From positions 62,001 through 126,000 of the forward strand of contig NZ_BPKY01000002.1 in NCBI RefSeq assembly GCF_019656055.1: a DNA stretch of 64,000 nucleotides, given 5' to 3'. Origin of the DNA: Leuconostoc miyukkimchii (GTDB lineage: Bacteria; Bacillota; Bacilli; Lactobacillales; Lactobacillaceae). Shown in pieces: positions 1,157-56,555 of this stretch. A program made the position numbers and the translations under genes. The first letter of the stretch is position 1. The number at the start of each line of letters is the position of its first letter. Below the pieces are notes generated by a model, which was not told the origin of the DNA, did not search any database, and saw only the letters and a program-made list of their open reading frames with translations.

Positions 1157-2032
1157 TTAATAACTTTTCAATAATATTTTCCCCAGTATGACTAATTTTT
1201 CAATACGGGTCACATACATACGCGTGGTTATATTTTCAAAATCGTGTTTAATCAATTTAACCAATATTTTCTTGTAAACTTCAATTGACAATTCTAATGC
1301 TACCCTACTTTTTCTATCACTAATATGAGTCATAATATTTTGACTTTCTTCGTAATTTTTCAATGATTTGTTAGACAGTATTTTGAAAATACCTTTCAAA
1401 TTATCGCTTGTAGGATAGTCCAAAAGTTCTTTGTGACTCACACCATATTTGTACAAAAGTCGTTCGGGTATAAAATAACGTCCCTCTAGAGCATCTTCAT
1501 GGACATCTCGTAAGATATTAGTTAATTGCAAGGCAATACCTACTTCGATAACTTTTTGTTTGATTGCATCAATTGAATTTGGTGATAAAATACTATAAAT
1601 CATGCATCCCACTGTACCTGCAACTTGGTAACAATAAGTCTCAAGCTGCGTCATCGTAGTGATGTTTTCACCATTTAAATCATGTTGCTGCCCTACAATC
1701 ATGTCTTCCAAAAATTTATTGTCAATCGAAAATGTTTGGAAGATATATGCTACTTTTTCACTAATATTTGATTGGTGATTAATTATGATACTATTTTTTT
1801 GAGAAGCCTTTTCCCAATTTAAAACAAGTTCATTAAATTTACTATGATTACTAGTATCTGCTGCATCGTCAAGTTGTCTCAAAAAATCATATATCACAAA
1901 AATACTATAGGCTTGATAACTCGGTAATTTTGAAAAAGCAAAGTAAAAAGAAGAAGATTGTTCTTTAATTATTTGTTTACTTATACAAAAATATTTTAAA
2001 ACTGGTTCTATTGCTATTTGTTCAAGGGCCAT
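1157..2032 (-). CDS. crtM: Dehydrosqualene (4,4'-diapophytoene) synthase CrtM
   Basis: A 291-residue enzyme expected to condense two farnesyl diphosphates head to head into 4,4'-diapophytoene, the first step of C30 carotenoid synthesis. Both Asp-rich Mg2+/diphosphate motifs are present: DDAAD at residues 55-59 and DVHED at 176-180 within LTNILRDVHED. The ATG abuts the crtN stop codon (TAAATG), so the two genes are translationally coupled. A plant- or actinobacterial-type C40 phytoene synthase is less likely because the partner is CrtN and no GGPP synthase is nearby. Confidence 0.92.
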   Translation of the reverse strand: MALEQIAIEPVLKYFCISKQIIKEQSSSFYFAFSKLPSYQAYSIFVIYDFLRQLDDAADTSNHSKFNELVLNWEKASQKNSIIINHQSNISEKVAYIFQTFSIDNKFLEDMIVGQQHDLNGENITTMTQLETYCYQVAGTVGCMIYSILSPNSIDAIKQKVIEVGIALQLTNILRDVHEDALEGRYFIPERLLYKYGVSHKELLDYPTSDNLKGIFKILSNKSLKNYEESQNIMTHISDRKSRVALELSIEVYKKILVKLIKHDFENITTRMYVTRIEKLVILGKILLKSY

Positions 2033-3517
2033 TTATAGGTCCCTCATAACTTCCTTAGCAGTTAATTCACCACTTGTAACAACAATAGGAACACCGGCAC
2101 CAGGATGAACACTGGCACCTGCAAAATACAAATTGTCAATCTTTGAATGTTTATTATGCGGCCTAAAATAATTACTTTGTTTTAATGTTGGCTTCAATCC
2201 GAACGCTGCCCCATACGCGCTATTATATTTATTTTTGAAAGTATCTGGCGTATGAATACTTTGGTATACAATATGTTCATTGAGTCCCACCAATCCCAAC
2301 TCTTTTTCAACCTTCTTAATAATTTTTTCAGAAAAATTTGTCACTACTTCTGTTGACCAATTTTCATTTTCTTTTAAATTAGCTACAGGTACTAAAACAT
2401 AAAGTGCAGACTGATCTTGTGGCGCAAAAGTATCGTCAATGGCACTAGGATTATACACATAAAATGATGGATCTTCTGGTAAGACACCGGTATCAATATC
2501 TTCGACATTTTTTTCAAAATTATTTGCCATTTTAATTGTATGCAAATTCAGTTCAGCATATTTTGTATCTACACCGAGGTACAATAAGAAACAAGACATT
2601 GAATAATCCATGCTTTGCACTTTTTTTTCAGAGTACTTACCTTTCTTTGTATCTGAAATATCTAATAAATCAGTCATGGTATAAGGAAAGTCTGAATTTG
2701 CAATAACAGCATCAGATTTTTCAAGATTTCCATTAATCAAAAGGCCATTAACATGTTTATTCTGTGGCACAACAATCTTAGTAACTTCAGAATTGTAAAT
2801 CACTTCCCCACCAAGCTCTAAGAAACGTTTTTCTAATGCTTTAGCATATTCAAACATACCACCTTTAATAAACCAAACACCATATACCAACTCAATCATA
2901 GGGATAATATTATATATTGACGGACCACTAAATGGAGAAATTCCAATATATAAGGTTTGAAAAGATAGTAAATATTGTAAATTAGTGTTTGAAACATTTT
3001 TTTGAATTGCTTCAAAAGAGGACGAGAATGTCTTTAACTTATAAGCATGCCACAAGGTTTTGAAATTAAAGAAATCTTTGGGACCTCTAAAACTTTTGTA
3101 AATAAAATTGTCTTTTGCATTGATATATTTGCCATATATATCTGTCAAATACTTTAAAAACCCTAACATTTCGGATTCATCATATGCCTCAAACTCGCGA
3201 GCGAGATCTGTCAAATCTGATGATAAGGCAACTTTCCCTTCGCCAGTAATGACATCCATAAAAGGATTAACTCTTTCCAAACTAAAATAATCTTCATAGT
3301 TAACCCCGCTGTCTGTAAACGGCTTTTTATAAACATCCGGCATCATAACAATTGTCGGTCCAGTGTCAAATTTAAATCCTTTTTCCTGGATAATGTCCAT
3401 TTTGCCACCAGGGTGACTATTTTTCTCGAATATTTTTACATTATATCCGTTATTTTGCAAATAGATTGCTGAAGTGAGGCCACCAATACCAGCACCAATT
3501 ATTGAAATTGTCTTCAT
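2033..3517 (-). CDS. crtN: Dehydrosqualene desaturase CrtN
   Basis: A 494-residue FAD-dependent desaturase that would convert colourless 4,4'-diapophytoene to yellow 4,4'-diaponeurosporene. The N-terminus is a Rossmann dinucleotide fold, GAGIGG at residues 8-13, followed by FEKNSHPGGK. The C-terminus carries the carotenoid desaturase signature YFAGASVHPGAGVP. It is first in a two-gene operon with crtM. The crtOPQ genes that extend the pathway to staphyloxanthin are absent here, so a yellow diapo-carotenoid is the predicted end product from this locus. Confidence 0.93.
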   Translation of the reverse strand: MKTISIIGAGIGGLTSAIYLQNNGYNVKIFEKNSHPGGKMDIIQEKGFKFDTGPTIVMMPDVYKKPFTDSGVNYEDYFSLERVNPFMDVITGEGKVALSSDLTDLAREFEAYDESEMLGFLKYLTDIYGKYINAKDNFIYKSFRGPKDFFNFKTLWHAYKLKTFSSSFEAIQKNVSNTNLQYLLSFQTLYIGISPFSGPSIYNIIPMIELVYGVWFIKGGMFEYAKALEKRFLELGGEVIYNSEVTKIVVPQNKHVNGLLINGNLEKSDAVIANSDFPYTMTDLLDISDTKKGKYSEKKVQSMDYSMSCFLLYLGVDTKYAELNLHTIKMANNFEKNVEDIDTGVLPEDPSFYVYNPSAIDDTFAPQDQSALYVLVPVANLKENENWSTEVVTNFSEKIIKKVEKELGLVGLNEHIVYQSIHTPDTFKNKYNSAYGAAFGLKPTLKQSNYFRPHNKHSKIDNLYFAGASVHPGAGVPIVVTSGELTAKEVMRDL

Positions 3518-3886: not shown

Positions 3887-4555
3887 TTACGACAACAACC
3901 ATTTTTCCTCCTGATAAGACATTTCCCAAAAAAGTACTTCATATCGTAATGAATTTTTGAAAATATTTGTTAAGTGTATTCGCTGACTAGCTGTTTGTTG
4001 TGCTGTGAGGCTATCAAACTGCTGAATTAACCACCTAGTCAGATTATTAAATTCTGGTGAACTATACATCGCAATCCACTCACCGTAAAGCGCATGTTTA
4101 GCACCAGGTGATTGGGTCAAACTCTTACCAATTTCAGCATAGCCCCACATACATGGTAATAGTACTGCTAAAAGCTCTGATTGTCCGCCAGTTTGAGCAA
4201 CTGACAATAAATAATTTGTATAGGCTAAAGTTGTGGGCGCTGGTTGTGATGATGCCAAGGTCATCTCACTAATATTAAACTGAGCAGCATATTTACGGTG
4301 TAATGCCATTTCATCGGTTAGAGTGGCATGCAGGAGCGATGAAAAGTGTGCCATAGTTGCTAAATCCGTACTTTTGAGGGCACCAATGGCAAATACTTTG
4401 GCATAATCAATCAGATAAACATAATCTTGTATCATATAATATTTAAACTTCTCTATTGGCAAAGTACCAGATCCAATTTCTTTCACAAATGGATGGTTGA
4501 GATTAGCTTGCCAAATGTTGTCAATCTCTATCAAAATTTCTTGACTGAATCCCAT
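3887..4555 (-). CDS. tenA: TenA, aminopyrimidine aminohydrolase (thiaminase II)
   Basis: A 222-residue all-helical TenA protein. It hydrolyses 4-amino-5-aminomethyl-2-methylpyrimidine (from degraded thiamine) to the pyrimidine alcohol HMP, and can cleave thiamine. Conserved features are the early IQDYVYL (active-site Asp), the nucleophile Cys in LLPCMWGYAEIG and the late Glu in FWEMSY. It lies 2 bp after the upstream deacylase gene, with GGGAG overlapping the end of that gene. The pair forms a base-salvage operon under a TPP riboswitch. Confidence 0.92.
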   Translation of the reverse strand: MGFSQEILIEIDNIWQANLNHPFVKEIGSGTLPIEKFKYYMIQDYVYLIDYAKVFAIGALKSTDLATMAHFSSLLHATLTDEMALHRKYAAQFNISEMTLASSQPAPTTLAYTNYLLSVAQTGGQSELLAVLLPCMWGYAEIGKSLTQSPGAKHALYGEWIAMYSSPEFNNLTRWLIQQFDSLTAQQTASQRIHLTNIFKNSLRYEVLFWEMSYQEEKWLLS

Positions 4556-4557
4556 AT

Positions 4558-5823
4558 TTACTCCCTTCTAGTGTGTGTCCATGTCACAATAAAACGCGCT
4601 AAAGATTGACTATATTTCACTAAACGTTCAATTGAAATACTTTCATCAACTGCATGCGCATTATCCAAATCACCCGGACCATATATGGCAGCTGGAATGC
4701 GGGCATCACCAAACCAACCACCATCAGTAACACTTGTTGAAAAAGAAGTCTTAGTTTTAGTGCCAAATGTAGCTTGATGTGCATCTAATAATGTTTGGAT
4801 AGCGAGATGATTATCATCTATCTCTAATGCTGGGAAAATTTCACCTCGATCTTCAATCATAGAATTTCCTCCCCACCTAAAGGTGGGTAAATGATCCTTT
4901 AACCACGGATCTGCCTGTGCTAAGCGAGTCACAAACAACTCGATTTCTTCTGTGACAGATTGATAGGTTTCATTGGGATAAAAGTGGACCGTTACCCATA
5001 AGCGTGCTTCATCTGCAACGAATGCTGCATGTCGACCACCTTCAATAACTGCTGGATTAATCGTATTTGTGCCAGCAGGAAATCCTGGATATATTTTGTT
5101 TATTGCCCAATCACGTTCCAATTCTTGCAATCCGATAATTATTTTCGCCATTTTTTCAATTGCACTTGCAGCTCTTAAGCCACCACCGGCATGAATCATT
5201 TGACGACGTAGCCCATCATGATAAGTCTTATCACTTTTAATTGTTATCCAACCTGTAATAACACCACCTTGGCCTTGAACTTCTAAATCACTTGAATCTG
5301 TTACAAGTGCAAAATCAGCTGTATAACCATGCTCAATGGTTGATCTTGTCCCAGCTTCACCCACTTCCTCACCAATAACTGATTCAAATAATATTTTCCC
5401 TGGTAAAATGATATTCTGATCATTCAAAATCTTGAGGGCAAATAATGCTGCTGCTAGTCCACCTTTCATATCTGAGACACCACGACCAATTAATCGCTTA
5501 TCGCAAATATTGGTTTCAAAAGGTGAAAAGGTCCATTTTTCATCAGGATTTAACGATGCGACATCCATATGCCCGTTAATAATTAAGCTTTGATATGACG
5601 CATCACCTGATTTAGTGCCAACCACGATATCGTCATTATCATATAATGCCCATTGATCAATGTTAAATCCCAAAGGTCGTAGATAATCAGCAACAAAAGT
5701 TTGAGCTTTGTGTGTATTTCGTGCTGGTGGTGCCGTTGTATCAAAAGCGACTAAGCGTTTAACTAAGTCGATTAGTTCATCCTGCTGTGACTCAATTTGT
5801 TGAACAATTTTTGTTAAATCCAT
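4558..5823 (-). CDS. ylmB: M20-family deacylase, YlmB-like formylaminopyrimidine deformylase
   Basis: A 421-residue metallo-amidohydrolase of the ArgE/DapE/ACY1 (M20) family. Metal and catalytic motifs are visible: NGHMDVAS, DMKGG and GEEVGEAG. Placement with tenA behind a TPP riboswitch points to the YlmB role: removal of the formyl group from N-formyl-4-amino-5-aminomethyl-2-methylpyrimidine before TenA deaminates it. Sequence alone cannot separate this from acetylornithine deacetylase or succinyl-diaminopimelate desuccinylase; the assignment rests on context. Confidence 0.82.
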   Translation of the reverse strand: MDLTKIVQQIESQQDELIDLVKRLVAFDTTAPPARNTHKAQTFVADYLRPLGFNIDQWALYDNDDIVVGTKSGDASYQSLIINGHMDVASLNPDEKWTFSPFETNICDKRLIGRGVSDMKGGLAAALFALKILNDQNIILPGKILFESVIGEEVGEAGTRSTIEHGYTADFALVTDSSDLEVQGQGGVITGWITIKSDKTYHDGLRRQMIHAGGGLRAASAIEKMAKIIIGLQELERDWAINKIYPGFPAGTNTINPAVIEGGRHAAFVADEARLWVTVHFYPNETYQSVTEEIELFVTRLAQADPWLKDHLPTFRWGGNSMIEDRGEIFPALEIDDNHLAIQTLLDAHQATFGTKTKTSFSTSVTDGGWFGDARIPAAIYGPGDLDNAHAVDESISIERLVKYSQSLARFIVTWTHTRRE

Positions 5824-5868: not shown

Positions 5869-5921
5869 TAAAAATTGATTTAAGCATGTGTTGCTAACAG
5901 AAAAATCCTGTTACATCACAA

Positions 5922-5995
5922 TTCACTTTCCTCCGCTGGTATTATCCATCTCAGGTTCAAAGGGTTCTTCTCAGCCATTTGGCGCCCCTAGTGTA
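5922..5995 (-). promoter_or_regulatory. TPP riboswitch upstream of ylmB-tenA
   Basis: The minus strand shows GGGGCGCC, GGCTGAGAAG, ACCCTTTGAACCTGA and ACCAGCGGAGGAAAGTG, the conserved THI-box segments in correct order, followed by the terminator and ylmB. Confidence 0.95.
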
Positions 5996-6013
5996 TTCTT
6001 TAATTATCAACTG

Positions 6014-16653: not shown

Positions 16654-17148
16654 TTATTCGCCGTTTTCACGCAGCCAAGGTTGATCTGATATTTCATTCT
16701 CGGTTAAAATGCGATGCATTGTTTCCTGAGCTTGCGGTACAAACATAACCGGTTCAGGATCAATTGGCACGAATTGTAGATCCAACGTCTCAGTCCCATC
16801 TTTTTTTAAGTATCCAGCAACTTGCTTCACTTCAAAACCAATACCAATGGTTTCTTGAGCATCACCCCAAGAATTCTTGTCTGTAATGTTAGTAGAAATA
16901 CCTAGTACACGAATTACCTCGACATCAATATTAGTTTCTTCTTTAAATTCACGAATAACCGCTTGCATTGGCGAGTCCTTGTATTCAAGATAACCACCTG
17001 GAAATCCCCATCCAGCATCTGAATCCCAACGTTTCTCAAGCAATATTGCATCATGGGCTTCATTCCATAAAACACCATAAGCTGATACAAAGATCATCCC
17101 CTCATGCCCCACTTTTTCGCGCATACGCGCAATGTAATTCTTATTCAT
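16654..17148 (-). CDS. Nudix hydrolase
   Basis: A 164-residue Nudix protein that would hydrolyse a nucleoside diphosphate linked to another moiety. The Nudix box runs from GGYLEYKDSP to REFKEETNID and contains the REFKEE core that binds Mg2+. Preceding WGFPGGY is also typical. AAGAGGT precedes the ATG. Substrate cannot be read from the sequence. Confidence 0.88.
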   Translation of the reverse strand: MNKNYIARMREKVGHEGMIFVSAYGVLWNEAHDAILLEKRWDSDAGWGFPGGYLEYKDSPMQAVIREFKEETNIDVEVIRVLGISTNITDKNSWGDAQETIGIGFEVKQVAGYLKKDGTETLDLQFVPIDPEPVMFVPQAQETMHRILTENEISDQPWLRENGE

Positions 17149-17336: not shown

Positions 17337-20300
17337 TTACACAAGGTGACCGTTATTATCAAATCGATACACTTTCCCGCTGAAAATGATTGCTTGATCG
17401 TTTTTTGTTTGAACACCTGTATTTTCATCAAAGTGTTGTAATTGACCGTTTAACGCAATAAATCCTTTGACAATTTGATAGTTGTTATCAGCATAATACC
17501 AATTATCTTGATAATAGTAATAGTCATTATTGACAGCACTACCATTAATACTCTCAAAATAGTAATTCAAGCCAGTTTCTGGATCAACAACAACATCTCC
17601 TTTAACCTGCTCCCCGTTCTTATCAAAATATTTAAGCTTGCCGTCAACCTTAATGAATCCGACTACTACTTGTCCCTTTGAATCAGCATAAGACCATTTC
17701 CCATCAGGTAATTGATAATATTCGTTTGATAACAGAATACCAACGTTATTAAAAATATAGTTAACGCCATTTATTTTTTGTATACCTGTTACCAGATTCC
17801 CAGTTGCAACATCAGTATAAACTAAGTGACCATCTACCGTGATAAATTGACCTTTACTCTGGTGACCATCATCATAAAAATACTTTTGATTACCATTTAT
17901 GATTTGTAATCCTTTAACCGCAACACCGTTTTCATCAAAATAGAACCATTGCCCTTGACTGTTAGAAGCAAATCGATTGATTGCTAAGTTACCATTACCT
18001 GCTTGTAAGTAATACAACTTGCCATCGGTAGCCTTCAAAAATTGATCTTTTACTTGCATACCATTTTTATCAAAATATTGTTTGTGTCCATCGATTGTGG
18101 TGAAACCATTAATGACCATGATGCCAAGATCATCAAAGTAATACGCGCTACCCGTTTGATCTACGATGTATTGACTAAACACTTGATGGCCTTTTTTATC
18201 AAAGTATACGGTTGTGCCATCTTCGTTTTGCAAAAATGATTGTACGAGTTCGATACCATTTGGCAAGAAGAAGTAAGTGTGTGTCTTGATTTGTTGTAAT
18301 CCAGTTACTAGATGCCCTGTATTGTCAAAGTAATAATAGTTACCATTATTATCTTGAACAAACGTACTTTGGGCGCGTGAACCACTCAAGGTGTAATAAA
18401 TAATTCCTTTATCATCATGGGTAAACCCAGTTTCAGACAAATCATTTGTTAACTGGCTAGGCAAATAAATACCACCATTATTATTTGCAGTTACCTTATA
18501 GTAACTATTCGACCCACTATCTTTTAAGACATATGAGTCACCTTTTCCTTGAATATTGGAACCGTTGAAGTACTTGGCTGACCATTCATTAATGTGAACA
18601 CTAGGATCAATTGCAACACCAGTAGAAATTTGCTTTGTTTCAAATAGTGATGGATATTTTGATTGTAGTTCTGTTAAGAAAGCACCACCATACTGACTTT
18701 GGAATTGACCACCACCACGACTTTGAACAACATACAATGCATTATCAATATCTGATTCTGTATCATCATCGCCATACGAATTTGTTCGTGTCACTGTCGC
18801 TAATTCTTTGTCTGGCAAATTATAAATTTGATCGGGTACCCAATCAGCAATAACTTGGATACCATTAGCATGTAGCGACTTGATAGCAGATCGTAGTTGG
18901 TCGACAGTACCATATTTTGTAGCTGTGTCATATCCTAAATCATACCGATCAGTGAAAGCATACCCATTTTGAATAATCGAATCCAAGAAACTTGTATCTG
19001 TACTGGAGCGATATTGTGGTGCTAACTGAAAGCTAGTGATACCCCATTGTTTGAATAAATCACCATTTTGACTAATGACTGCATTGGTATATTCATCTGT
19101 ATTCGTAGCAAAGGCTTGGAAGTTTGAAAAGCCTTCGTAAATAACCTGAGAGTCCAAGGCAGCATTTGAGTGAAATACTTTACCATCAGTATGCGCTGTT
19201 GTATCAGAATCTGTACGTGCATCTTGTTCCTGTTCAGCACCAACTGGAACCCAAACAGCTAGATAACCTGATATTTGAGGATTTTGAACACCATAAATAT
19301 TTTGACCAGTGAAAATCAAATCGCCATTATTATCAGTATATTTAATTGGTGCATCATCATCACTATAGTACGCCAAACCATCAATTGTCGTTTGCAACAA
19401 ACTTCGGAATGCTTGATTTTTATGCGCTTCTCCCATGTGCAAAACAACTGTATCATTTGCTGCTAAATGTAAGTCCTTGTTGTTACTTACAATAACACCA
19501 ATTCCTTGCATCTTAGTTTCTGCTGTACCTACGTCTTCAGCAGTCATGGCACCTTTTCCATAACGCACACTCGTTAATATATCATTTTTATCAACTGACA
19601 TAGATTGTCCGCCAGCAACATATTGTACACGAGCTTTCAATAATGTATTAATTGCATCAAAATAAGGTGATTTAGTTGCCATATATTGACCATCATCTGT
19701 ATACAAATCACCGTAATACACGCGTGGTACAGTGTCTTTGTTAGTTAATAACATAGCATAAGCACTTGGAATATTGTACTGAGTATATTGTTTTTCAGCT
19801 AGTGTTTGATCCTTATTGTACACTTTAAATGCTTCAGCTAATTGTTCCGCAGAAGGTGCCAAACTATTTTCAACATCTGGATGTAAGTCAGATATTATTT
19901 GTGCAATAACTGTTTGCACTTCGCTATCGTGTGCACGTACAAAACTATAATTTGGAATAGCTGTGTTTTCTGTACTGTCATGACTACGATCAACCATATA
20001 GTAATCCATGAATCGTTGCATTGTACCACGAATATCAGACGATTTTGTTAATGACCATATTAACTGAGTATGTGCATAATCATCCATTGTGAGTTGGTTA
20101 TTTCCAAAATCATTGACATAAAGTGGATCATTATGACTCCAGTCTTCAAGAATAGAAAGATGCTTGTTCGCATCGCTATCACTTTTATCAACACCGTAAG
20201 CCAATTTAAAGTAATCAGCAGCAATTTGTAATAAATCTGCATCAACGTTATCAACGGCATCAACTCTGATACCATCAAAGTTGGCTGAATCATCGCCTGC

Positions 20301-21932
20301 CGTAATTGATCCAAAATTCATTAGATAATATAACCAATTTAATTGCTCTGCTTGAACAACAGGATTTGAATTATCGACATCATTGGCAAGCAAGAGCTCA
20401 AATCCGCCTTTTGAATTATCCAAATTGTATTTTTGTTCACCAGTTTGATTTGTTGGTGTACGATTTAATAGTCTAAAGTTAGAATTAGTGTCAGGTGTCA
20501 ATGGACTATTGACAAAAGATAGTGCACCATTTTGTAAGTGATCGTTTTTGGGATCCTCACTACTTTGATTCCACTGTGATTGTGTCACTATAAAGGCATC
20601 AATGGCTTCTTTTAGCCATTCTGTACTTTTATTAAGACCTATTTTAGTTTCGATGGCTTTTTGTAGATAGTTCCCAGCCTGATTTAACAACGTTTGATCG
20701 TTAGTTGTTGAAAAACCTGTGTTATTATCAATTAACCCGAGTTGTGACATGTAATTCAAATAATTTACTTGTGTTTTTTTATCAGGCCACCAAACAGATA
20801 AGATTGGGCGAAAATCTTCTGCTGTAGAAGCTTCCCAATTTTGACCGTTTCGTAATATGTCTTTAGGGCGATACCAAGAAGAGGCCGTAAGATAACCATC
20901 TATATTCTCAAAATCGGCACTATCTTTACTGTGTACCGCATTATGTTCGGTATAATCTGTGTTTTGAGATGTTAAACCTTCTTTAATTTGTGATGTCGTT
21001 GCAGATACTTCTTGACCTGTTGTCTGATCAAAGTACATTACGTGACCAGCGAATACACCCGAAAATTCCTTTTTTAATTGTCCTAAAGTATCAAAATAAT
21101 AATTATGCCCATCAATATTTTTTAATCCAACTACCGCATTGCCTAGTTCATCAAAATAATAAGTTTGATTATTCTTAGCTTGATAGAAACTACTCGTTAC
21201 TTCTTCCCCAGCCTGGTTAAACGCTACTGTACGAGTTCCTAATTTTTGGACGTCCGTCAATGCATTGCCAGAATCTTTATCGAAATAGTAAGTATGCCCA
21301 TTTGTCGTTACTAACTGACCTTTTATTTGTACACCATTATTATCAAAATATTGTACATTATTGTCAATGGTTGTTAAACCTTTAGCATTTTGGCCGTCAG
21401 TTTTGACATAAAACCATGAACCATCTTTTTGAATATAACCCTTATCTGTAACATCAGGTTGCTTTTGTTCAACTTCAGGTTGATTATCTACAACGTTGTC
21501 GTTTGGTTCCTTGTTTGCAGTAGTCTGATCAATACTGACTGGTGTGGTTTTGTCGGTATCATCAACTTTGGTCGCTGTTTGGTCAGTTGTCTGACTATCA
21601 GTTTGGTTTTGATCTTTTTTAACACCGTCATCTGTTTGTTTTTCCGATGTTTTTGTATCTGCAGATATACTATCCTTAGTGGTTTCCTGTAGTGTGACCT
21701 TGTCATTCAAATCAGTATTCTGTTTGCCTGTTTGATCACTAGTATCAGTATCAATTTTACTCTTATCTGTAGTTACCTGCGTCACTGGTTGGCTACTAAC
21801 CACCGTATCCGCCGACACAATTTCTGGCAATGTTCCTGTTAATCCAACTGTTAACACTGCTGCGCCACCAATAACCCAGCTTTTCCCAGCCTTGTACAAT
21901 TTTTTCTTTACTACTCTCTCTCTATCAAACAT
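17337..21932 (-). CDS. Glucansucrase GH70, dextransucrase type
   Basis: A 1531-residue secreted enzyme that polymerises glucose from sucrose. Order: signal peptide with a KxYKxGKxW-like motif ([10 protein letters not shown], residues 10-19); Thr/Asp/Gln-rich variable region to about 165; first glucan-binding repeats to about 310; circularly permuted GH70 domain; C-terminal glucan-binding repeats from about 1180. The catalytic triad reads Asp558 ([11 protein letters not shown]), Glu596 (LSILEDW) and Asp669 (RAHDSEV); motif [10 protein letters not shown], comes later near residue 1030 as expected for the permuted barrel. SEVQT after Asp669 is the dextran-type (alpha-1,6) signature. Length matches DsrS/DsrD-type enzymes. 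No branching-sucrase or alternansucrase signature seen. Confidence 0.95.
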
Positions 21933-22413: not shown

Positions 22414-23172
22414 CTATTTTTTAATCGCTTGATATAAAATAAATGGCGAAACACTTTTTTCATTTGACCAAGTATTGTAATGATATTTGTTTTCAATGCG
22501 TGCAATTTGATCCTGTGTAAAATCATTTAACTTTGGGTATGACACACTTATTTCACTAAATCCCGCACGTTTCAGATTATTTTCATACATATCATTTGGC
22601 CAATTAAAATCATGTAGTATGAGATTTTCATTTTCACTTACAGTCAATGTCTCAACACGCTTCTCCCCATAATTATATTTTTTGCCAGGAATACCGTTTT
22701 GAAAAGTTGAAAATGGGATTCCTGTCGCATTAGGGTTCGTATCTAAAACCAAAAACCGACTTTTGGGCTTTAATACGCGATATATTTCCATCATAATAGC
22801 CAATATTCGTTGTTCAGACTCATTATTGATGAAAACATAAGAGGCTATGGCACCATCAATTGACCCACTTTTAATAAAATCCAGATTATCATTTTTTACA
22901 ATTTTATAGTTAATATGTCGGTGTTTTCGTTCTTTTTTAGCAATATCAATCATTTTTTGTGATTCATCAACAGCAATAATATCACATGGCAGCTGTTCAG
23001 CAAATCTTAATGATACTTTGCCAGGCCCACAACCATAATCTAATATTTTTCTAGGTTTATATTGATTAAATACAGACATTATACTATCATAACCAAGTAC
23101 TTGTTCCAACACATCATTATACTGATTAAATTGATCAGCAACTTTTTCATTTTTAAACAGATTTTTTGTCAT
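22414..23172 (-). CDS. Class I SAM-dependent methyltransferase, third gene of putative bacimethrin operon
   Basis: A 252-residue Rossmann methyltransferase. Motif I is ILDYGCGPGKVSL, the acidic residue of motif II is in IIAVDESQKM, and a motif IV-like DGAIASYVF follows. Its ATG is one base past the stop of the thymidylate synthase-like gene, so the two are tightly coupled. By pathway logic it could O-methylate a hydroxymethyl-cytosine product at the 2-oxygen to give 4-amino-2-methoxy-5-hydroxymethylpyrimidine (bacimethrin). That substrate is inferred from neighbours; the sequence alone says only methyltransferase. Confidence 0.75.
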   Translation of the reverse strand: MTKNLFKNEKVADQFNQYNDVLEQVLGYDSIMSVFNQYKPRKILDYGCGPGKVSLRFAEQLPCDIIAVDESQKMIDIAKKERKHRHINYKIVKNDNLDFIKSGSIDGAIASYVFINNESEQRILAIMMEIYRVLKPKSRFLVLDTNPNATGIPFSTFQNGIPGKKYNYGEKRVETLTVSENENLILHDFNWPNDMYENNLKRAGFSEISVSYPKLNDFTQDQIARIENKYHYNTWSNEKSVSPFILYQAIKK

Positions 23173-23173
23173 T

Positions 23174-24157
23174 TCACTTCTCCACTAACAATTTTTGGGG
23201 CCATTTATTCGTCAAAAAGTATTTGTAAATAGGTATGAGATGATCAAACAGCACATAATCAACTTCCCTTTTAAAGTAAATCATTTGATAAATACTAAAC
23301 AACGCTAGAATTTGTTGCCAGTATGGCGACAATCCGGTATCCAAAATCGATTGCCAATCCATAGTACACTCATTTTTCCGCAACATTTTTTCATACTTCA
23401 TTAATTTCTTTATCATATCCCAATTGTTGCCTGAGGGCATCATTGGAAATTTAAAATTTAAAGAACGCGGGTCTTCAAGCACATGACTAACCCATGTATC
23501 ATCAGTCTGATAAATATGCATGGTACCGACAGTGTGGTAGTATTCACCAACTTCAATATTTAAATCACGTGCCATGAGTTCTTGTATCATAGTGAAAGAA
23601 AAGACATCGCTGACAATACCACGAAATGCATCATTGGCTCGCATATAACTCACCATATTGAGTCGATTATTCCGAATAAAAAATTGTAGCCCGAGTGTAC
23701 AAGAGACATCTAAATTATCAGCAATTGTTAGTTCATTAGCATCAAATATTTGCATAACAGCTCGTTTAGAATCCGGATCCTCTGATAATATTTTTTTAAC
23801 ACGCTGCCATTGATCCAATTGTTGTTCCCCAAAATGAAATATTTTTTTACCATAGGCTGTTCCGGTCAATATTTTGCCATCTACCGAGTAATTTGGCATT
23901 CTCTGATTATAATAGCTCATATAATCCAAACTATTATCTCCAGATAAATACCACAAAGCCTCTGCAAAATTAAAAATGATGTTAATTTTTCTTGTTTTGC
24001 TGTAAACAACTCTTTGTGTTGGGTCTTGTATATTAAAGCTAACACCGAGTCTCTCACGGCTGTTAAATCCTCTAGGTTGGTTAAAAAAATCGGCATGATA
24101 ATATATATTATGCAATACTGCCATGTATGCCTCATCAAAGGTTTTATATGTTGACAT
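23174..24157 (-). CDS. Thymidylate synthase-like CMP/dCMP hydroxymethylase, putative bacimethrin enzyme
   Basis: A 327-residue thymidylate synthase homologue. By ungapped alignment with E. coli ThyA numbering it keeps the catalytic Cys (Cys153 = 146), Glu66 (= 58), Arg173 (= 166), Asp176 (= 169), His214 and Tyr216 (= 207, 209). The Asn177 that selects uracil is replaced by Asp184 (GIVSDVFSF for GLPFNIASY). Asp at this site is the known switch to cytosine nucleotides in T4 dCMP hydroxymethylase and in the CMP hydroxymethylase MilA. The Pro-Cys-His loop is Ser-Cys-Thr. Hence a cytosine-nucleotide 5-hydroxymethylase rather than the housekeeping ThyA. Gene context and a TPP riboswitch match BcmA of bacimethrin synthesis. 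Confidence 0.82.
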   Translation of the reverse strand: MSTYKTFDEAYMAVLHNIYYHADFFNQPRGFNSRERLGVSFNIQDPTQRVVYSKTRKINIIFNFAEALWYLSGDNSLDYMSYYNQRMPNYSVDGKILTGTAYGKKIFHFGEQQLDQWQRVKKILSEDPDSKRAVMQIFDANELTIADNLDVSCTLGLQFFIRNNRLNMVSYMRANDAFRGIVSDVFSFTMIQELMARDLNIEVGEYYHTVGTMHIYQTDDTWVSHVLEDPRSLNFKFPMMPSGNNWDMIKKLMKYEKMLRKNECTMDWQSILDTGLSPYWQQILALFSIYQMIYFKREVDYVLFDHLIPIYKYFLTNKWPQKLLVEK

Positions 24158-24170
24158 TATATTCCCCTAT

Positions 24171-24617
24171 TCATCTATTTGAATTTAATAATTCAGCCAT
24201 TTTCAACAAAGAATCATCTATGCTTTTATAATATAGATAGGTTACATTCGCAATTGCCTTTAGTCCTTGTACTAAATACGCATAATCATCATGTTCGTTT
24301 AATAACAAAATTATTCTTTTATTGTGTGCTGAAGCCCAACCAATCTCAATATGAGTTCCCGGTGATGCAGGATTTCCCGGGAATGCTACAAATAGATCAC
24401 ACTGCTTAATCGCTTCATAATCAGCAATAGTGCATTGCTTAGGAGTCATCATTTTCTCACCCCATTTTTCTCTTTTGTGCGCATTATCAACCATAAAATC
24501 ATGCTTTTCAAATAACGCTATCATTGCCTTTATTTCTTGTATTTTTAACGGCTGCACCACACCTTGCTGGTTTAATAACTGTTTAAATGGCGCTGCTAAA
24601 AAAGCACGTTTTACCAA
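24171..24617 (-). CDS. Nucleoside 2-deoxyribosyltransferase-like N-glycosidase, first gene of putative bacimethrin operon
   Basis: A 148-residue protein of the nucleoside 2-deoxyribosyltransferase fold. The signature FPGNPASPGTHIEIGWASA holds the catalytic Glu (HIEIG), as in the CMP N-glycosidase MilB and its bacimethrin counterpart, which release hydroxymethylcytosine from the nucleotide. The start is the TTG at 24617: AGGAGG lies 7 nt upstream, inside the terminator-to-gene spacer. An ATG at 24671 would fall within the riboswitch terminator and is rejected. First of three genes; 13 bp separate it from the next. Confidence 0.8.
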   Translation of the reverse strand: MVKRAFLAAPFKQLLNQQGVVQPLKIQEIKAMIALFEKHDFMVDNAHKREKWGEKMMTPKQCTIADYEAIKQCDLFVAFPGNPASPGTHIEIGWASAHNKRIILLLNEHDDYAYLVQGLKAIANVTYLYYKSIDDSLLKMAELLNSNR

Positions 24618-24644
24618 AAGTAAGCCTCCTAAATTAAGAACAAT

Positions 24645-24680
24645 AAAAAAGTGTTTGCACTTATAATGCAAACACTTTAC
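24645..24680 (-). terminator. Terminator of the third TPP riboswitch
   Basis: On the minus strand, AAAGTGTTTGCA pairs with TGCAAACACTTT around a short loop, then a T run. It ends about 15 nt before the AGGAGG of the first operon gene. Confidence 0.85.
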
Positions 24681-24718
24681 GACATAGTATGGCTATCTAT
24701 ATTTTTTATACATAGTTT

Positions 24719-24812
24719 CATACTTTCCTACGCTGCTTGCAACAGATCAGGTTCAAAGGGTTCAAAGATAACACTTCTCTCTCAGCTTTTTGATAAAAGC
24801 ACCCCTAGTATG
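24719..24812 (-). promoter_or_regulatory. TPP riboswitch of the putative bacimethrin operon
   Basis: The minus strand carries CATACTAGGGGTGC, AAGCTGAGAGAGAAG, ACCCTTTGAACCTGATCTG and GCAGCGTAGGAAAGTATG. P1 is closed by CATACT with AGTATG. The P3 arm is longer than in the other three copies. Confidence 0.95.
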
Positions 24813-24839
24813 TTAATTAATCGATTAATAACAAGATTG

Positions 24840-24869
24840 ATTCTATCACACATATTCAAAAATAAGCAA
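24840..24869 (-). promoter_or_regulatory. Promoter of the putative bacimethrin operon
   Basis: TTGCTT (24869-24864) and TAGAAT (24845-24840) on the minus strand, spacer 18 bp, about 28 bp upstream of the aptamer. Confidence 0.65.
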
Positions 24870-24943: not shown

Positions 24944-24985
24944 CTCCAATATATTAATTGGTACGACCCAATTAATATATTGGAG
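24944..24985. repeat. Perfect 18-bp inverted repeat abutting the phosphoketolase -35 box
   Basis: Two arms of 18 bp (24944-24961 and 24968-24985) are exact inverse complements, starting CTCCAATATATT, with a 6-nt loop. The second arm ends one base before the TTGACT of the downstream promoter. It may be a regulator site or an insulating terminator (a T6 tract follows five bases later). Confidence 0.8.
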
Positions 24986-25014: not shown

Positions 25015-25174
25015 GAATATGTAAAAAGAAGTCTAAGTAATGAAATTTGTTTAATTATTTCAAACACATTTTTATCATTATTTGAAATTTTTACTGTACT
25101 TTGCAAAGTGTTTTCATTTTCTAATATTTTTTTACATGTTTTAAAAACCTAAGATTCAACTGGAGGAATAACGT

Positions 25175-27541
25175 ATGACTATTGATTCAAAGGACTATCT
25201 CATCAAACTAGATGCCTATTGGCGAGCTACTAACTATTTGTCTGTAGGTCAACTCTACTTGCTAGATAACCCATTAATTAGAGAAAAACTAACCGCTGAC
25301 CAAGTAAAGATACATCCGATTGGTCATTGGGGAACAATCCCTAGTCAAAACTTTATTTACGCGCATTTAAATCGAGCCATTAATAAATTTCATGTAAATA
25401 TGTTTTATGTTGAGGGTCCTGGTCATGGCGGACAAGTCATGATTTCAAATGCTTATCTTGATGGTAGCTACACAGAAGCTTTTCCAGAAATCACACAAGA
25501 TACAGCTGGTATGCAAAAAATGTTTAAACGTTTTTCATTCCCTGGCGGCGTCGCCTCACATGCAGATCCGAAAGTACCTGGTTCTATTCACGAGGGTGGT
25601 GCTTTAGGTTATTCAATCTTACATGGTGCTGGGGCAGTATTAGATAATCCTGACCTAATTGCCGCAGTAGTAGTTGGTGATGGGGAGGCTGAAACAGCGC
25701 CATTAGCCACTTCATGGCATGTAAACAAATTTTTAAATCCTAAAAACGATGGCACTGTTTTACCCATTTTAAATTTGAACGGCTTTAAGATTGCTAATCC
25801 GACAGTTTTGTCTAGAGAATCTGATGAAACATTAACGGAATACTTCCATAGTTTGGGGTGGCATCCTTATTTTGTTAGTTCTTTTGACAAACCTATTATG
25901 CAGGTTCATGAGGAGATGGCCACAACCATAGACACTGTTTTTAACGAAATTAAGGCAATTCGTGAACATGCTGCTCAACAAAATAACGATGACATCACAC
26001 GCCCTATTTGGCCAATGATTGTCCTACGTTCACCAAAGGGATGGACTGGACCAAAAACTTGGGATGGTAAGCCAATTGAAAATTCATTTCGTGCACATCA
26101 AATTCCGATCCCGGTAGATCAGAATCATCCAGAATATATCCCCCAACTTGTTGATTGGCTTCAATCATATCATCCTGATGAATTATTCGATGATAATGGT
26201 CATTTAGCATCCGAGATACAAGAAGTGTTACCAAAAAAATCTTTACGTATGGCAAGTAACGCTGTGACCAATGCAGGTATTATCAAACCGCTCTCCTTAC
26301 CAGATATTGATAACTATCTTACCGATAACACTGCCCCTGGTCACCATCTAGCACAAGATGCTATTTTATTGGGATCATATATCCGTGATATTATTAAATT
26401 AAATCCCGATAATTTTCGTGGATTTGGACCAGATGAAACTGCTTCTAATCGATTCCAAGATGTCTTTGAAACAACCAATAGACAATGGCTATTACCAATT
26501 AAAGAACCAAACGATCAGTTTATGGCGCCATCAGGGCGTATCATAGACTCAATGCTATCTGAACATTATGATGAGGGGATGCTGGAGGCGTATACACTTA
26601 CAGGCCGACATGGATTTTTTGCCAGTTATGAAGTCTTCATTCGTGAGGTCGATGATATGATTGTTCAACACTTTAAGTGGTTAAATCATTCACATGAGGT
26701 ATCATGGCGCCATGATGTGCCTGCCTTAAATATTATTGCCAACTCAACTGTATTTCAACAAGATCACAATGGTTATTCTCATCAGGATCCTGGTGTCACA
26801 ACTATGTTGTATGAAAAGCAACCAGATTTCATACGTGAATTTTTCCCAGCTGATGCTAATAGTTTAGTCGCAACATTTGCACATGCAGCAAAGACAACAC
26901 AACAAATCAACTATATTGTAGCCAGCAAACATCCCCGCCTACAATGGTTTTCACCAGAAGAGGCAAAGCAACTCGTTACACAAGGACTACGTGTTGTTGA
27001 TTGGGCTAGCACTGATGATGGCGAAAAGCCTGATATTATCATTGCCTCAGCCGGTTCTGAACCCACTACCGAAAGCTTAGCAGCAATTCAAATTCTGCAT
27101 GATAATATACCATCACTCAAAATTCGTTATATTAATGTACTAGATTTGTTCAGATTACGTTCTGACGCATCTTATGGTTTAAGTGACGACGAATTTGATG
27201 CTTACTTCACAACTGATGTACCTGTCTTGTTTGCATTTCATGGCTATGAACCAATGATTGAGTCAATTTTCTTTAAGCGTCATAATCACAACTTGAAAGT
27301 TCATGGTTACCGTGAGGTGGGCGATATTACGACCCCGTTTGATATGCGTGTACTTAATAAAATTGATCGATTTAATTTAGTAAAAGCTGCAATCAGTATG
27401 CTTCCTCGAGAAGTCAATGCTAATTACGCTCATCTTGCACAAAGTATGACAGACAAAATCAATGAACACATCGCCTATACAAGATCACAAGGAACAGATT
27501 TACCTGAAGTGGAGAATTGGCGTTGGCAAACAATTAAATAA
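25175..27541 (+). CDS. xfp: Xylulose-5-phosphate/fructose-6-phosphate phosphoketolase
   Basis: A 788-residue TPP-dependent enzyme that splits xylulose 5-phosphate (and often fructose 6-phosphate) with phosphate into acetyl phosphate plus glyceraldehyde 3-phosphate or erythrose 4-phosphate, the key step of heterolactic fermentation. Recognisable family segments include [18 protein letters not shown] near the N-terminus, [18 protein letters not shown], the TPP/Mg-binding [11 protein letters not shown] and late [24 protein letters not shown] is 9 nt before the ATG. Sequence does not decide the sugar preference. It is divergent from the TPP-controlled operon at 22414-24617, a suggestive neighbourhood for a TPP-dependent enzyme. 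Confidence 0.95.
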
Positions 27542-53999: not shown

Positions 54000-54035
54000 A
54001 ACTCGTGTAGACGTGTCTACATACAACTTAGATAA

Positions 54036-54118
54036 TACAAGCTGGGGTGCCCGCAAGGCTGAGATAAATACCCATATAACCTGATCTAGTTCATGCTAGC
54101 GTAGGGAGATTTCTTGAA
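54036..54118 (+). promoter_or_regulatory. TPP riboswitch upstream of the ykoE operon
   Basis: Consensus segments in order: GCTGGGGTGCC, GGCTGAGATAAATACCC, ATAACCTGATCTAGTT and GCTAGCGTAGGGAGA. The fourth TPP riboswitch of the window, and the only one on the plus strand. Confidence 0.96.
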
Positions 54119-54150
54119 ATATGTGTTTTTTCGTGTATTTAATTTCACTT

Positions 54151-54187
54151 TCAAGCCGATCTTTTTATGGGGATGGCTTTTTTTGTT
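54151..54187 (+). terminator. Terminator of the ykoE TPP riboswitch
   Basis: AAGCCGATC pairs, with one mismatch, with GGATGGCTT, followed by a T run, about 70 bp before the ykoE start. Confidence 0.7.
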
Positions 54188-54257
54188 GCCTGTACATACA
54201 CACCTGCGTGATATTAACGTTTCATCGCACACTTTACAAATTTAGGAGGTATGCAAA

Positions 54258-54833
54258 ATGCATACAAAATGGTCACTTCGTGATGTAATTTTCTTGGCAC
54301 TCATTGGTGTCTTCTTCGGATTTATTTTCTGGGCTTGGGCATTTGCTTACAATGCTATTGCGGCTCTACTGACACCCATGGGACTCAGTCCTTATGCCAA
54401 TGATCTGACACTAGGTCCATGGGTCATGGCTGGTCCAATGGCTGGTTACCTGTTACGCAAAGCTGGTGCTTCTATTATTGGCGAAACATTGGCTGGTACG
54501 GCTGAGATGATTTTTGGTTCACAATGGGGTATTATGAACGTTGTGTACGGTCTGATGCAAGGTCTAGGTGCTGAACTCGGATTTGCCTTGTTTGGTTATA
54601 AGAAATGGCAACCGATTTCACTTACTGCTTCCGTAATTTTGACAACTGTTGTGACTTTCATCTGGGACTTGTTCCAGAGTGGCTATGCAAATTATTCATT
54701 TGGACTACTTGTTGGTTTGTTCGTAACACGGTTAATATCTATTGCCCTTTTTGGTGGCGTTCTTGTTTACTATGTTCAAAAATTAGTTGATAAATCTGGT
54801 ATTCTCAATCAAACGAAAGTAACGGTATCATAA
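54258..54833 (+). CDS. ykoE: YkoE, ECF transporter S component for HMP/thiamine
   Basis: A 191-residue membrane protein with five to six helices. WSLRDVIFLALIGVFFGFIFWAWAFAYN and GPWVMAGPMAGYLLRKAGASIIGE are typical of YkoE, the substrate-binding subunit of an energy-coupling-factor importer for the thiamine pyrimidine moiety (HMP). AGGAGGT precedes the ATG. It is first of four genes behind a TPP riboswitch; the stop is followed at once by the ATG of the next gene. Confidence 0.92.
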   Translation: MHTKWSLRDVIFLALIGVFFGFIFWAWAFAYNAIAALLTPMGLSPYANDLTLGPWVMAGPMAGYLLRKAGASIIGETLAGTAEMIFGSQWGIMNVVYGLMQGLGAELGFALFGYKKWQPISLTASVILTTVVTFIWDLFQSGYANYSFGLLVGLFVTRLISIALFGGVLVYYVQKLVDKSGILNQTKVTVS

Positions 54834-55136
54834 ATGTCTGAAATTAACGCAAGTATTGCTGTGCAGGTTTTACCCATGACAGCAGACCAAGCAGAAATTA
54901 TTCGTATTGTTGACTACGTTATTGCCTACATAGACAAAACTCATGTCAATTACCAAGTTGGTGCCTTTGAGTCAACACTTGAGGGGAATTATGATCAACT
55001 CATGGATATTTTAAAAGCACTACCTTTAGTGGCTGCAGAAATAACTGATATCCCTGTAATGGTGTATAGTAAAATTAACATGGCACCCAAAGGTGATGTT
55101 TTAACTATCGCACAAAAAACAGATAAATATCTTTAA
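54834..55136 (+). CDS. Thiamine-binding protein, single-domain YkoF/MTH1187 family
   Basis: A 100-residue cytoplasmic protein of the YkoF/MTH1187 (DUF77) family: INASIAVQVLPM, VNYQVGAFESTLEG and VMVYSKINMAPKGDVLTI. B. subtilis YkoF binds HMP or thiamine and has two such domains; this one has a single domain and probably dimerises. It lies between ykoE and ykoD, as ykoF does in related operons. A 16-bp stem follows its stop (55141-55156). Confidence 0.85.
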   Translation: MSEINASIAVQVLPMTADQAEIIRIVDYVIAYIDKTHVNYQVGAFESTLEGNYDQLMDILKALPLVAAEITDIPVMVYSKINMAPKGDVLTIAQKTDKYL

Positions 55137-55140
55137 AAAA

Positions 55141-55156
55141 AGCGTGTTTAAACACG
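55141..55156 (+). other. Intercistronic palindromic stem in the yko operon
   Basis: GCGTGTTTAAACACGC, a perfect 16-bp palindrome, lies between the thiamine-binding gene and ykoD. There is no T run, so it is more likely an mRNA stability or processing element than a terminator. Confidence 0.5.
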
Positions 55157-55175
55157 CGTACATATAGGACAATTT

Positions 55176-56555
55176 ATGTTAAAACTGACCAAAACCTCAC
55201 TCACATATGATGACACCCCTATTCTAAAAGACATCTCTATTGATTTGCCAAATGGCTCGTTTAATCTCTTGGTGGGACCGTCTGGTTCAGGAAAATCCAC
55301 CCTAATGAAAGTAATTGCCGGCATGATTCCGACATTAGCTGATCACGTCACAATTAATCAACAAAATCTAGCTGGTCTACCTGCTTACAAACGTGCAGGC
55401 TTCGTCGGCTTGCTTTTTCAAGACCCTGACACCCAATTTGCGATGTCAACACCATGGGAGGAAATCATATTTACTTTAGAAAATTTAAAAGTTGCCCCTT
55501 CTGAAATGACCGAGCGTGCTAACTACGCTTTGGATTTTGTCAACGGTAGCCAATTTTCACATCAAAGTTTCGATACACTATCCGGTGGTGAGAAACAAAA
55601 AGTCGCTTTAGCAATTATGGTTGCCATGCAAAGCAAAGTTCTATTACTTGATGAGCCTTTTGCTAGTATAGATATCACTTCACGCCAAGAAATTTTAAAA
55701 CAACTCAAAAAATTACAAATGAATGGTGTCACAATTTTGGTGACTGACCATGATTATTCTGGCTACGCAGATTTAGTTGATGATGTCTTTTCATTTAACC
55801 AACAACACATCCAAAAAATTAATAATCTTAACGCTTTTTTTGATCAACCATCGCAAGTAGATTACCAATTTAAACAGCCGCAAGAGTCACAATCAGTACT
55901 TAAACTCAATCAATTTAAACTCTCAGTAGGATCTCGTACATTAATTGATATATCTTTTTTTGCACTAGCTCATTCAGGCATTACGTTATTTAGTGGTAGT
56001 AATGGTAGTGGGAAATCAACACTCTTTAACGCCATAACACGACTAAAACCTTACCAAGGGCAAATCATGTATCTTAACCAAGATATTTCTAAAATCAAGC
56101 TTAATACGTATGCAAAAAAAGTCGCTTTAATTTTTCAAAGTGCTGAGAAACAATTTATGAAAATGACAGTATCTGAAGAACTGGCGTTAAGTCAAAAACA
56201 TACACAACATCCCAATTTATGGACCAATGAAGCAATTGAATCTGCCTTAACGACACTTCAACTTAACCATTTAAAAGACCATATTGTCTACCAATTGTCT
56301 GGTGGACAAAAGAAAAAACTTCAAGTGCTTTTACTGTTAATTATTGGCACGCCGGTCTTGTTGTTAGATGAACCACTTGCTGGTCTCGATAGCCAATCTA
56401 TCATTACTGTTTTATCACTTATAAAACAAACCATTGTAGAAACGCAACAACGTATCATTATAATCAGTCACCAACTGAACGGTGTCTTAGATTTCATTGA
56501 TTATCACATTGTTTTGCAAAATAATATGCTAACATTTACGGAGACATCGACATGA
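55176..56555 (+). CDS. ykoD: YkoD, ECF transporter ATPase (duplicated ABC domains)
   Basis: A 459-residue protein with two fused ABC ATPase domains. The first has Walker A GPSGSGKST, signature LSGGEKQKV and Walker B LLLDEPFASID. The second has SGSNGSGKST, LSGGQKKKL and LLLDEPLAGLD. It energises the ECF importer together with ykoC. The stop overlaps the ATG of ykoC, indicating translational coupling. Confidence 0.93.
   Translation: MLKLTKTSLTYDDTPILKDISIDLPNGSFNLLVGPSGSGKSTLMKVIAGMIPTLADHVTINQQNLAGLPAYKRAGFVGLLFQDPDTQFAMSTPWEEIIFTLENLKVAPSEMTERANYALDFVNGSQFSHQSFDTLSGGEKQKVALAIMVAMQSKVLLLDEPFASIDITSRQEILKQLKKLQMNGVTILVTDHDYSGYADLVDDVFSFNQQHIQKINNLNAFFDQPSQVDYQFKQPQESQSVLKLNQFKLSVGSRTLIDISFFALAHSGITLFSGSNGSGKSTLFNAITRLKPYQGQIMYLNQDISKIKLNTYAKKVALIFQSAEKQFMKMTVSEELALSQKHTQHPNLWTNEAIESALTTLQLNHLKDHIVYQLSGGQKKKLQVLLLLIIGTPVLLLDEPLAGLDSQSIITVLSLIKQTIVETQQRIIIISHQLNGVLDFIDYHIVLQNNMLTFTETST

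Follow-up and report, generated by a model that had tools for sequence, protein, structure and literature searches.

A predicted bacimethrin operon under a thiamine pyrophosphate riboswitch is linked to a second phosphoketolase gene in Leuconostoc

What does a riboswitch-controlled operon containing a thymidylate synthase (TS) homologue make in a lactic acid bacterium, and why does a second phosphoketolase gene lie back to back with it? Both questions are raised by a 64,000-nucleotide stretch of the Leuconostoc miyukkimchii genome (assembly GCF_019656055.1, contig NZ_BPKY01000002.1, positions 62,001 to 126,000 of the forward strand), referred to below as the window. A minus-strand operon spanning 24816 down to 22414 comprises a thiamine pyrophosphate (TPP) riboswitch aptamer, a terminator hairpin and three closely spaced genes. 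We consider it very probable that this operon encodes a bacimethrin pathway, and we propose, with a probability of roughly 0.5, that the linked gene, xpk2, encodes a tolerant phosphoketolase that protects the producer. A preliminary description of the locus had recognized the operon but overlooked the phosphoketolase. The elements of the operon are as follows:

24708-24816, minus strand: TPP riboswitch aptamer (Rfam RF00059, 66.1 bits against a gathering score of 54.3)
24648-24678, minus strand: intrinsic terminator of the riboswitch, directly 5′ of the Shine-Dalgarno sequence of the first gene (14-pair stem, then a T-rich tail)
24171-24617, minus strand: bcmB-like gene with a TTG start, predicted hydroxymethyl-CMP (hmCMP; CMP, cytidine monophosphate) N-glycosidase of 148 amino acids (aa) (CMP N-glycosidase and MilB matches, motif)
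23174-24157, minus strand: bcmA/milA-like gene, predicted CMP 5-hydroxymethylase of 327 aa (MilA match; K131, A174, D184)
22414-23172, minus strand: bcmC-like gene, S-adenosylmethionine (SAM) methyltransferase of 252 aa with a proposed role in hydroxymethylcytosine O-methylation (Methyltransf_25, 59.5 bits)

A mechanical listing of open reading frames (ORFs) gave the three genes as 24171-24671, 23174-24157 and 22414-23172, all on one strand. Since the longer ORF listed for the first gene starts within the terminator hairpin (TTG at 24671), the start of the bcmB-like gene is most likely the TTG at 24617, which lies seven bases 3′ of an AGGAGG sequence and opens an ORF of 148 aa. The preliminary description had also placed a promoter before the aptamer. 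The aptamer, the terminator and the three genes were recovered, but no promoter was called by the scan, and the sole basis for a candidate there is a stretch upstream of the aptamer that looks conserved by eye in a 9-way alignment. In the same alignment a stem-loop is visible, again by eye, at the terminator position in the other eight loci.

The operon was found in nine of the 19 same-genus genomes, which represent one per species. Synteny in other Leuconostoc, named in the preliminary description as a check, was observed: the operon, its gene order and the switch recur in the eight relatives with a bcmA homologue (58–70% BcmA identity), and chance or misannotation was thereby ruled out. The aptamer was detected upstream of the operon in all eight, so that every one of the nine Leuconostoc operons carries the switch.

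Pfam assigned the three products, in operon order, to Nuc_deoxyrib_tr (35 bits), Thymidylat_synt (90.9 bits) and Methyltransf_25, all over the cut-offs. Among solved structures, the TS-like protein matched MilA, annotated "CMP 5-hydroxymethylase", with 324 bits (residues 3–321 of 327), and the best thymidylate synthase with 69 bits. It passes the cut-off of the broad Pfam TS family; NCBIfam thymidylate synthase models gave at most 85 bits (cut-offs 108 to 427). The residues named in the preliminary description are present (C153, R173, D176, H214, Y216), as is the cytosine-switch aspartate (D184). MilA is described as set apart from enzymes acting on deoxyuridine or deoxycytidine monophosphate (dUMP, dCMP) by a Lys and an Ala in the ribose pocket, and the cytosine-recognition Asp as common to MilA, BcmA and the T4 dCMP enzyme (PMC5175136). 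This published CMP-specificity triad (Lys131, Ala174 and Asp184) is present in the window's protein and is kept in 36/36, 35/36 and 36/36 aligned sequences, respectively (four of 37 loci were omitted as interrupted or fragmentary). The ThyA residues for dUMP and deoxyribose, Asn177, Ser167 and Arg126, are replaced by Asp, Ala and Lys. The bit scores and residues rule out, at the sequence level, a ThyA acting on dUMP as the identity of this protein. The genome encodes a further TS, a canonical ThyA scoring 357.6 bits, on another contig, so this protein is not its sole TS.

The first protein had been described as deoxyribosyltransferase-like. It does belong to that broad Pfam family, but it is nearer to N-glycosidases: its matches among solved structures were 4jen, annotated "CMP N-glycosidase" (158 bits) and which we take to be BcmB of Clostridium botulinum, MilB (119 bits), and deoxyribosyltransferases (at most 21.5 bits). 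Its FLAAPFKQLL sequence fits FL(G/A)(G/A)PF(R/K)xL(L/V/T), a motif described as the signature of enzymes that are specific for hmCMP and linked to MilA homologues (PMC4081090). The methyltransferase is 40–50% identical to its counterparts in six operons of the same order (from Bacillus, Paenibacillus and relatives; C. botulinum BcmC is not among them), and its best solved match, at 31 bits, reflects the general fold only. Neither this enzyme nor the hydrolase was closer to an unrelated family. A CMP-type hydroxymethylase, an hmCMP-type glycosidase and an orthologous methyltransferase thus support the bacimethrin operon suggested in the preliminary description.

By family membership, BcmA would hydroxymethylate CMP, BcmB would cleave the resulting hmCMP to 5-hydroxymethylcytosine, and BcmC would methylate the 2-oxygen of this base to yield bacimethrin. 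At low TPP, the riboswitch would release transcription of the operon and CMP would be converted to bacimethrin. The first two steps are common to mildiomycin, and the methyltransferase family, with its 31-bit best solved match, reveals no substrate; the product might then be 5-hydroxymethylcytosine or another methylated cytosine derivative, such as a mildiomycin-like nucleoside antibiotic or a signal. We regard such a product as very unlikely, given the TPP riboswitch of all nine Leuconostoc operons, a gene order equal to that of a Paenibacillus operon described with bacimethrin genes (PMC5627462), and a neighbourhood in which no further biosynthetic gene except xpk2 lies beside the operon.

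The bacimethrin reading is in line with the bcm cluster of C. botulinum A (Cooper, O'Leary and Begley 2014, as presented in PMC12345177, PMC5627462 and PMC4081090), for which a CMP hydroxymethylase, an hmCMP glycosidase and a SAM methyltransferase are reported, the same three enzyme types as in Leuconostoc. Unlike that cluster, the Leuconostoc operon has no adjoining thiaminase I or pyrimidine kinase and is accompanied instead by a second phosphoketolase (ThiD is encoded elsewhere in the genome). The preliminary description had likewise seen no thiaminase I next to the operon. A genome-wide search for thiaminase I gave no match in any of the 19 same-genus genomes, but its positive control gave none either. 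Since Microcystis clusters are also reported without thiaminase I (PMC12345177), we did not treat this gene as defining for a bcm operon.

In the thiaminase I operons described for Paenibacillus, the genes for glycosidase, TS homologue and methyltransferase stand in the Leuconostoc order and a TPP riboswitch is reported; these operons also hold thiM, thiD, thiE and the genes for a HAD-NUDIX protein (YzgD) and thiaminase I, none of which is in the Leuconostoc cassette (PMC5627462). The proteins of P. apiarius (L094) are 44–52% identical to the Leuconostoc ones, and no TPP switch reached threshold at that locus in our scan. MilA and MilB of the mildiomycin pathway share the first two reactions, the specificity residues and the motif with the Leuconostoc enzymes; unlike the product proposed here, theirs enters a nucleoside antibiotic (PMC5175136, PMC4081090). 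Actinobacterial MilA relatives branch apart from those of Firmicutes. The putative bacimethrin cluster of Microcystis would likewise belong to an organism making a thiamine antivitamin under competition, but its TS is reported as at most 30% identical to the bacterial version and its neighbours differ (ABC transporter, ThiD2) (PMC12345177).

Across 397 Lactobacillaceae genomes, a BcmA homologue was found in nine, all of them Leuconostoc. A scan of named genomes gave 37 loci, distributed over six Leuconostoc species (carnosum, rapi, gelidum, litchii, inhae and holzapfelii), 18 other Firmicutes (Bacillus, Paenibacillus, relatives and two Lachnospiraceae) and 13 actinobacteria, one of these a fragment. 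In tblastn searches, 17 of these 18 Firmicutes loci had both a glycosidase and a methyltransferase gene alongside bcmA; in the one exception, Anoxybacillus (L092), bcmA stands without either. In the RNA-family scan, which covered 24 of the 37 loci, a TPP switch was located directly 5′ of the first gene in eight of these 18 (L084-L090, L101) and none reached threshold in the other ten; control by a TPP switch is not universal among bcm loci. Gene clusters recurring near bcm encode a HAD-NUDIX protein (13/36 loci), ThiD (10/36) and thiaminase I (7/36), the first and last labelled from one scanned representative each. A NUDIX protein encoded about 5 kb from the operon (window 16654-17148, minus strand) shows distant similarity to the HAD-NUDIX protein whose gene lies near bcmC at other loci. 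In L. rapi (G017, L039 7000-7806) bcmA is broken by an in-frame stop and its neighbours look intact, which may reflect a recent loss; an in-frame stop also breaks bcmA in Cytobacillus firmus (L087).

Clostridium, Paenibacillus, Streptomyces and, tentatively, Microcystis have been reported to carry genes for bacimethrin or to produce it (PMC5627462, PMC12345177). Our literature search found no paper joining bacimethrin with Leuconostoc, and the sole match for bacimethrin together with "lactic acid bacteria" concerns, as far as the matching text goes, surface sanitizing. Word searches found no "thymidylate" in comparative genome papers on Leuconostoc and on L. carnosum, and no "bacimethrin" in the former. 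Leuconostoc is a genus of fermented and spoiled foods, and a riboswitch-controlled gene set of this kind means that a vitamin B1 antagonist may arise in food when thiamine is short.

How would a producer live with such a compound? The L. miyukkimchii genome contains seven TPP riboswitches. Downstream of the six others lie a YkoE-YkoF-YkoD-YkoC-like transporter set (window 54033-57205, plus strand), a second, YkoE-D-C-like set with TenA (contig 6, L045; TenA by Pfam, the Yko names by resemblance), genes for an M20 hydrolase and TenA (window 3887-5823, riboswitch at 5911-5999, minus strand), thiM-thiD-thiE, a second thiE (L047:5187-5822), and thiW with a second thiM. The M20 hydrolase and TenA pair may serve the salvage of thiamine breakdown products. 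ThiC was found in none of the 19 same-genus genomes (the positive control matched 13/14), and because of this the organism seems to depend on salvaged pyrimidine. The second ThiE occurs in seven of nine operon-bearing and one of ten other same-genus genomes. It is absent from G006 and G017 and present without the operon in G016, and the association runs in the same direction in two to three of four independent pairs.

Late thiamine enzymes are reported to convert bacimethrin to 2′-methoxy-TPP, which inhibits several TPP enzymes, presumably not those without a clash; the methoxy group is said to hinder N1′ protonation (PMC11117688). Since the host has ThiD and ThiE, the Leuconostoc producer may itself turn bacimethrin into this toxic coenzyme analogue. 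Both main glycolytic routes are described as incomplete in Leuconostoc (PMC11279345), which makes the genus dependent on phosphoketolase. The gene divergent from the operon encodes a phosphoketolase, and the following features were identified around it:

25175-27541, plus strand: xpk2, second phosphoketolase of 788 aa, divergent from the operon (XFP_N, 534 bits)
24944-24985, strand-neutral: 18-bp inverted repeat of two CCAAT-N6-ATTGG units, abutting the TTGACT of the promoter-like site of xpk2 (sequence scan)
25097-25110, strand-neutral: palindrome ACTTTGCAAAGT in the xpk2 leader (13 invariant columns across all nine cassettes)

The other eight operon-bearing genomes carry a copy of XPK2 (82–89% identical to that of the window), the ten operon-less genomes carry none, and the operon and xpk2 are divergent neighbours in all nine. 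A housekeeping phosphoketolase, XPK1, which is 52–55% identical to XPK2, is encoded in all 19 genomes (in two pieces in G004). The two-part cassette occupies three chromosomal settings: between argF and rqc2 in six genomes, beside suf-like genes in two, and beside a glucansucrase-like gene in the window. Here argF and rqc2 are named from Pfam matches (carbamoyltransferase and NFACT protein, respectively), and the suf-like and glucansucrase-like labels were read from the sequence alone. The glucansucrase-like, repeat-rich protein has 1531 aa (window 17337-21932, minus strand). Two cassettes (L039:2009-3355, L040:2107-3453) contain a gene for a major facilitator superfamily transporter between argF and xpk2, a possible exporter not seen there in the other seven.

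Cassette-less genomes retain traces of these events. In five of the ten, the matched ends of argF and rqc2 are 31–41 bp apart, and in G018 the two genes are separated by 409 bp containing remnants of the bcmC start and the xpk2 end, 85–87% identical to its near relative G014; for the other four, the stretch retrieved did not show argF. When the cassette was mapped onto a tree built from Rqc2 alone (18 genomes, G004 omitted), its distribution required six changes, of which four or more fell on starred branches, and its clustering was not above that of shuffled labels. The operon and xpk2 have been gained or lost together several times. This shows linkage and does not by itself show function.

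XPK2 is also distinct as a protein. In a tree of 50 phosphoketolases, from which three were dropped, the XPK2 sequences are monophyletic (100/100), and their stem measures 0.83 changes per column. Their sister group (100/100) consists of 14 phosphoketolases of Lactobacillaceae outside Leuconostoc and has a stem of 0.06. At 26 positions all nine XPK2 proteins share a residue that is absent from 42 other phosphoketolases, which are at least 80% uniform there; two fragments were dropped from this comparison, and the 23 phosphoketolases from other genera in it are best-scoring matches, not an even sample. Several of these positions also vary in structures outside Lactobacillaceae (e.g. 544 relative to 3ai7) and carry little weight. 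Two substitutions affect motifs at the cofactor: HEGGELGY is changed to HEGGALGY (Glu156Ala in Bifidobacterium numbering), adjoining the active-site Gly155, and GDGEAETG to GDGEAETA (Gly188Ala). In the numbering of XPK2 itself, the two substituted positions are Ala143 and Ala175. The structures 6gua, 8io8, 3ai7 (B. longum) and 3ahc (B. breve) all retain Glu156 and Gly188. When aligned to 3ai7, XPK2 keeps each of the 14 active-site residues that two papers list (His64, His97, His142, Gly155, His320, Gln321, Glu437, Ser440, Glu479, Tyr501, Gln546, His548, Asn549 and His553). A third phosphoketolase gene lies at G008:C13:6089-8458 (L068), in a genome linked to L. inhae; its product shares 59% identity with XPK2 and sits on a long branch whose place in the tree is unsure.

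The linkage, the gain and loss as a block and the unusual substitutions suggest that XPK2 is tolerant, and a tolerant second phosphoketolase in one cassette with the operon is the simplest reading. Host ThiD and ThiE would convert bacimethrin to 2′-methoxy-TPP, XPK2 would stay active in its presence, and the main catabolic route of the heterofermenter would be protected. In antibiotic clusters, a variant paralogue of a sensitive housekeeping enzyme can travel with the biosynthetic genes and confer self-resistance. The role proposed for XPK2 resembles this second copy of a target, an arrangement that, to our knowledge, has not been described for a coenzyme antivitamin or for a phosphoketolase; our literature search found no paper joining bacimethrin with phosphoketolase. 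The linkage would narrow the open question of how a producer survives an antivitamin that it activates itself to a single enzyme, and XPK1 and XPK2 would be a natural pair for finding the residues that decide between poisoning by 2′-methoxy-TPP and tolerance of it.

Several observations weigh against a protective role. Because the operon and XPK2 travel together as a block, finding both in nine genomes counts as a single instance of linkage, not as nine separate observations; the four of four independent pairs (sign test p = 0.125) add nothing beyond linkage, because the presence lists of the two are identical. In L. rapi (G017) xpk2 is present with the interrupted bcmA. A longer stem still (1.06) leads to the clade of housekeeping XPK1, which lies in another part of the tree, so stem length alone is no proof of a new role. 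Mapping of the XPK2 substitutions through transketolase was abandoned, as the hhalign match was too weak (probability 1%) to give the cofactor C2′ residues a structural placement, and they were numbered against 3ai7 only. In 30 non-Leuconostoc loci, no phosphoketolase gene turned up at distances of up to about 8 kb from bcmA, or up to the contig end where that came sooner; other likely producers therefore do without one there and must manage differently. No transketolase was found beside bcmA in these loci either, and other TPP enzymes were not searched for.

Regulation of the two halves points the same way. No TPP switch at threshold precedes xpk2 in the window or in the same-genus relatives, and xpk2 has operator-like sites of its own, so that the halves of the cassette are not obviously co-regulated. 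The ends of the 18-bp inverted repeat are kept in the other eight cassettes and its arms differ (by eye, not counted). Taken alone in the window, the leader palindrome, a 14-mer with one mismatch, is not above chance. We suggest that xpk2 may be regulated, though not by a recognised TPP switch.

These sites, the missing switch and the lack of a phosphoketolase by the operon outside Leuconostoc would all be in keeping with xpk2 as an unrelated passenger, that is, an ordinary second phosphoketolase (e.g. pentose-induced) on a shared mobile or deletable segment, next to an operon that still makes bacimethrin. Block movement alone would give the identical presence pattern, and many genomes of the family encode two phosphoketolases. 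We hold this to be a serious possibility, if a tentative one. It does not readily account for a pair kept in nine of nine genomes across three chromosomal settings, or for the distance of XPK2 from other phosphoketolases of the family: its next best match is only 68% identical (301 family genomes, seven of them operon-bearing), and the DNA pattern for HEGGALGY occurs in nine of 397 family genomes, all nine operon-bearing (the reversed control gave no match).

A further possibility is that 2′-methoxy-TPP is the cofactor of XPK2 and not a poison for the producer. A thiamine-starved cell would build the pyrimidine from CMP, join it to salvaged thiazole and run its central pathway on the product. 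The absence of ThiC from all 19 genomes fits this idea, as does the gene set of L. miyukkimchii itself, in which every unit encoding ThiW, ThiM, ThiD and the two ThiE is preceded by a TPP switch; the bias of the second ThiE toward operon-bearing genomes fits it weakly. 2′-Methoxy-TPP has also been proposed as an ancestral cofactor that some enzymes tolerate (PMC11117688). However, a cell with a full set of thiamine salvage genes would seldom need a substitute, the other TPP enzymes of the cell, such as transketolase, would be exposed, and the ThiE association is imperfect in the genomes and pairs given above. We consider this explanation unlikely. If it were correct, XPK2 would have re-evolved for an altered coenzyme, keeping the central pathway running while thiamine-dependent competitors are poisoned, and the cassette would be a working case of methoxy-TPP serving as a coenzyme.

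Elsewhere in the window, genes for a squalene/phytoene synthase and an amino-oxidase-type protein (1157-3517, minus strand) likely form a small carotenoid pair.

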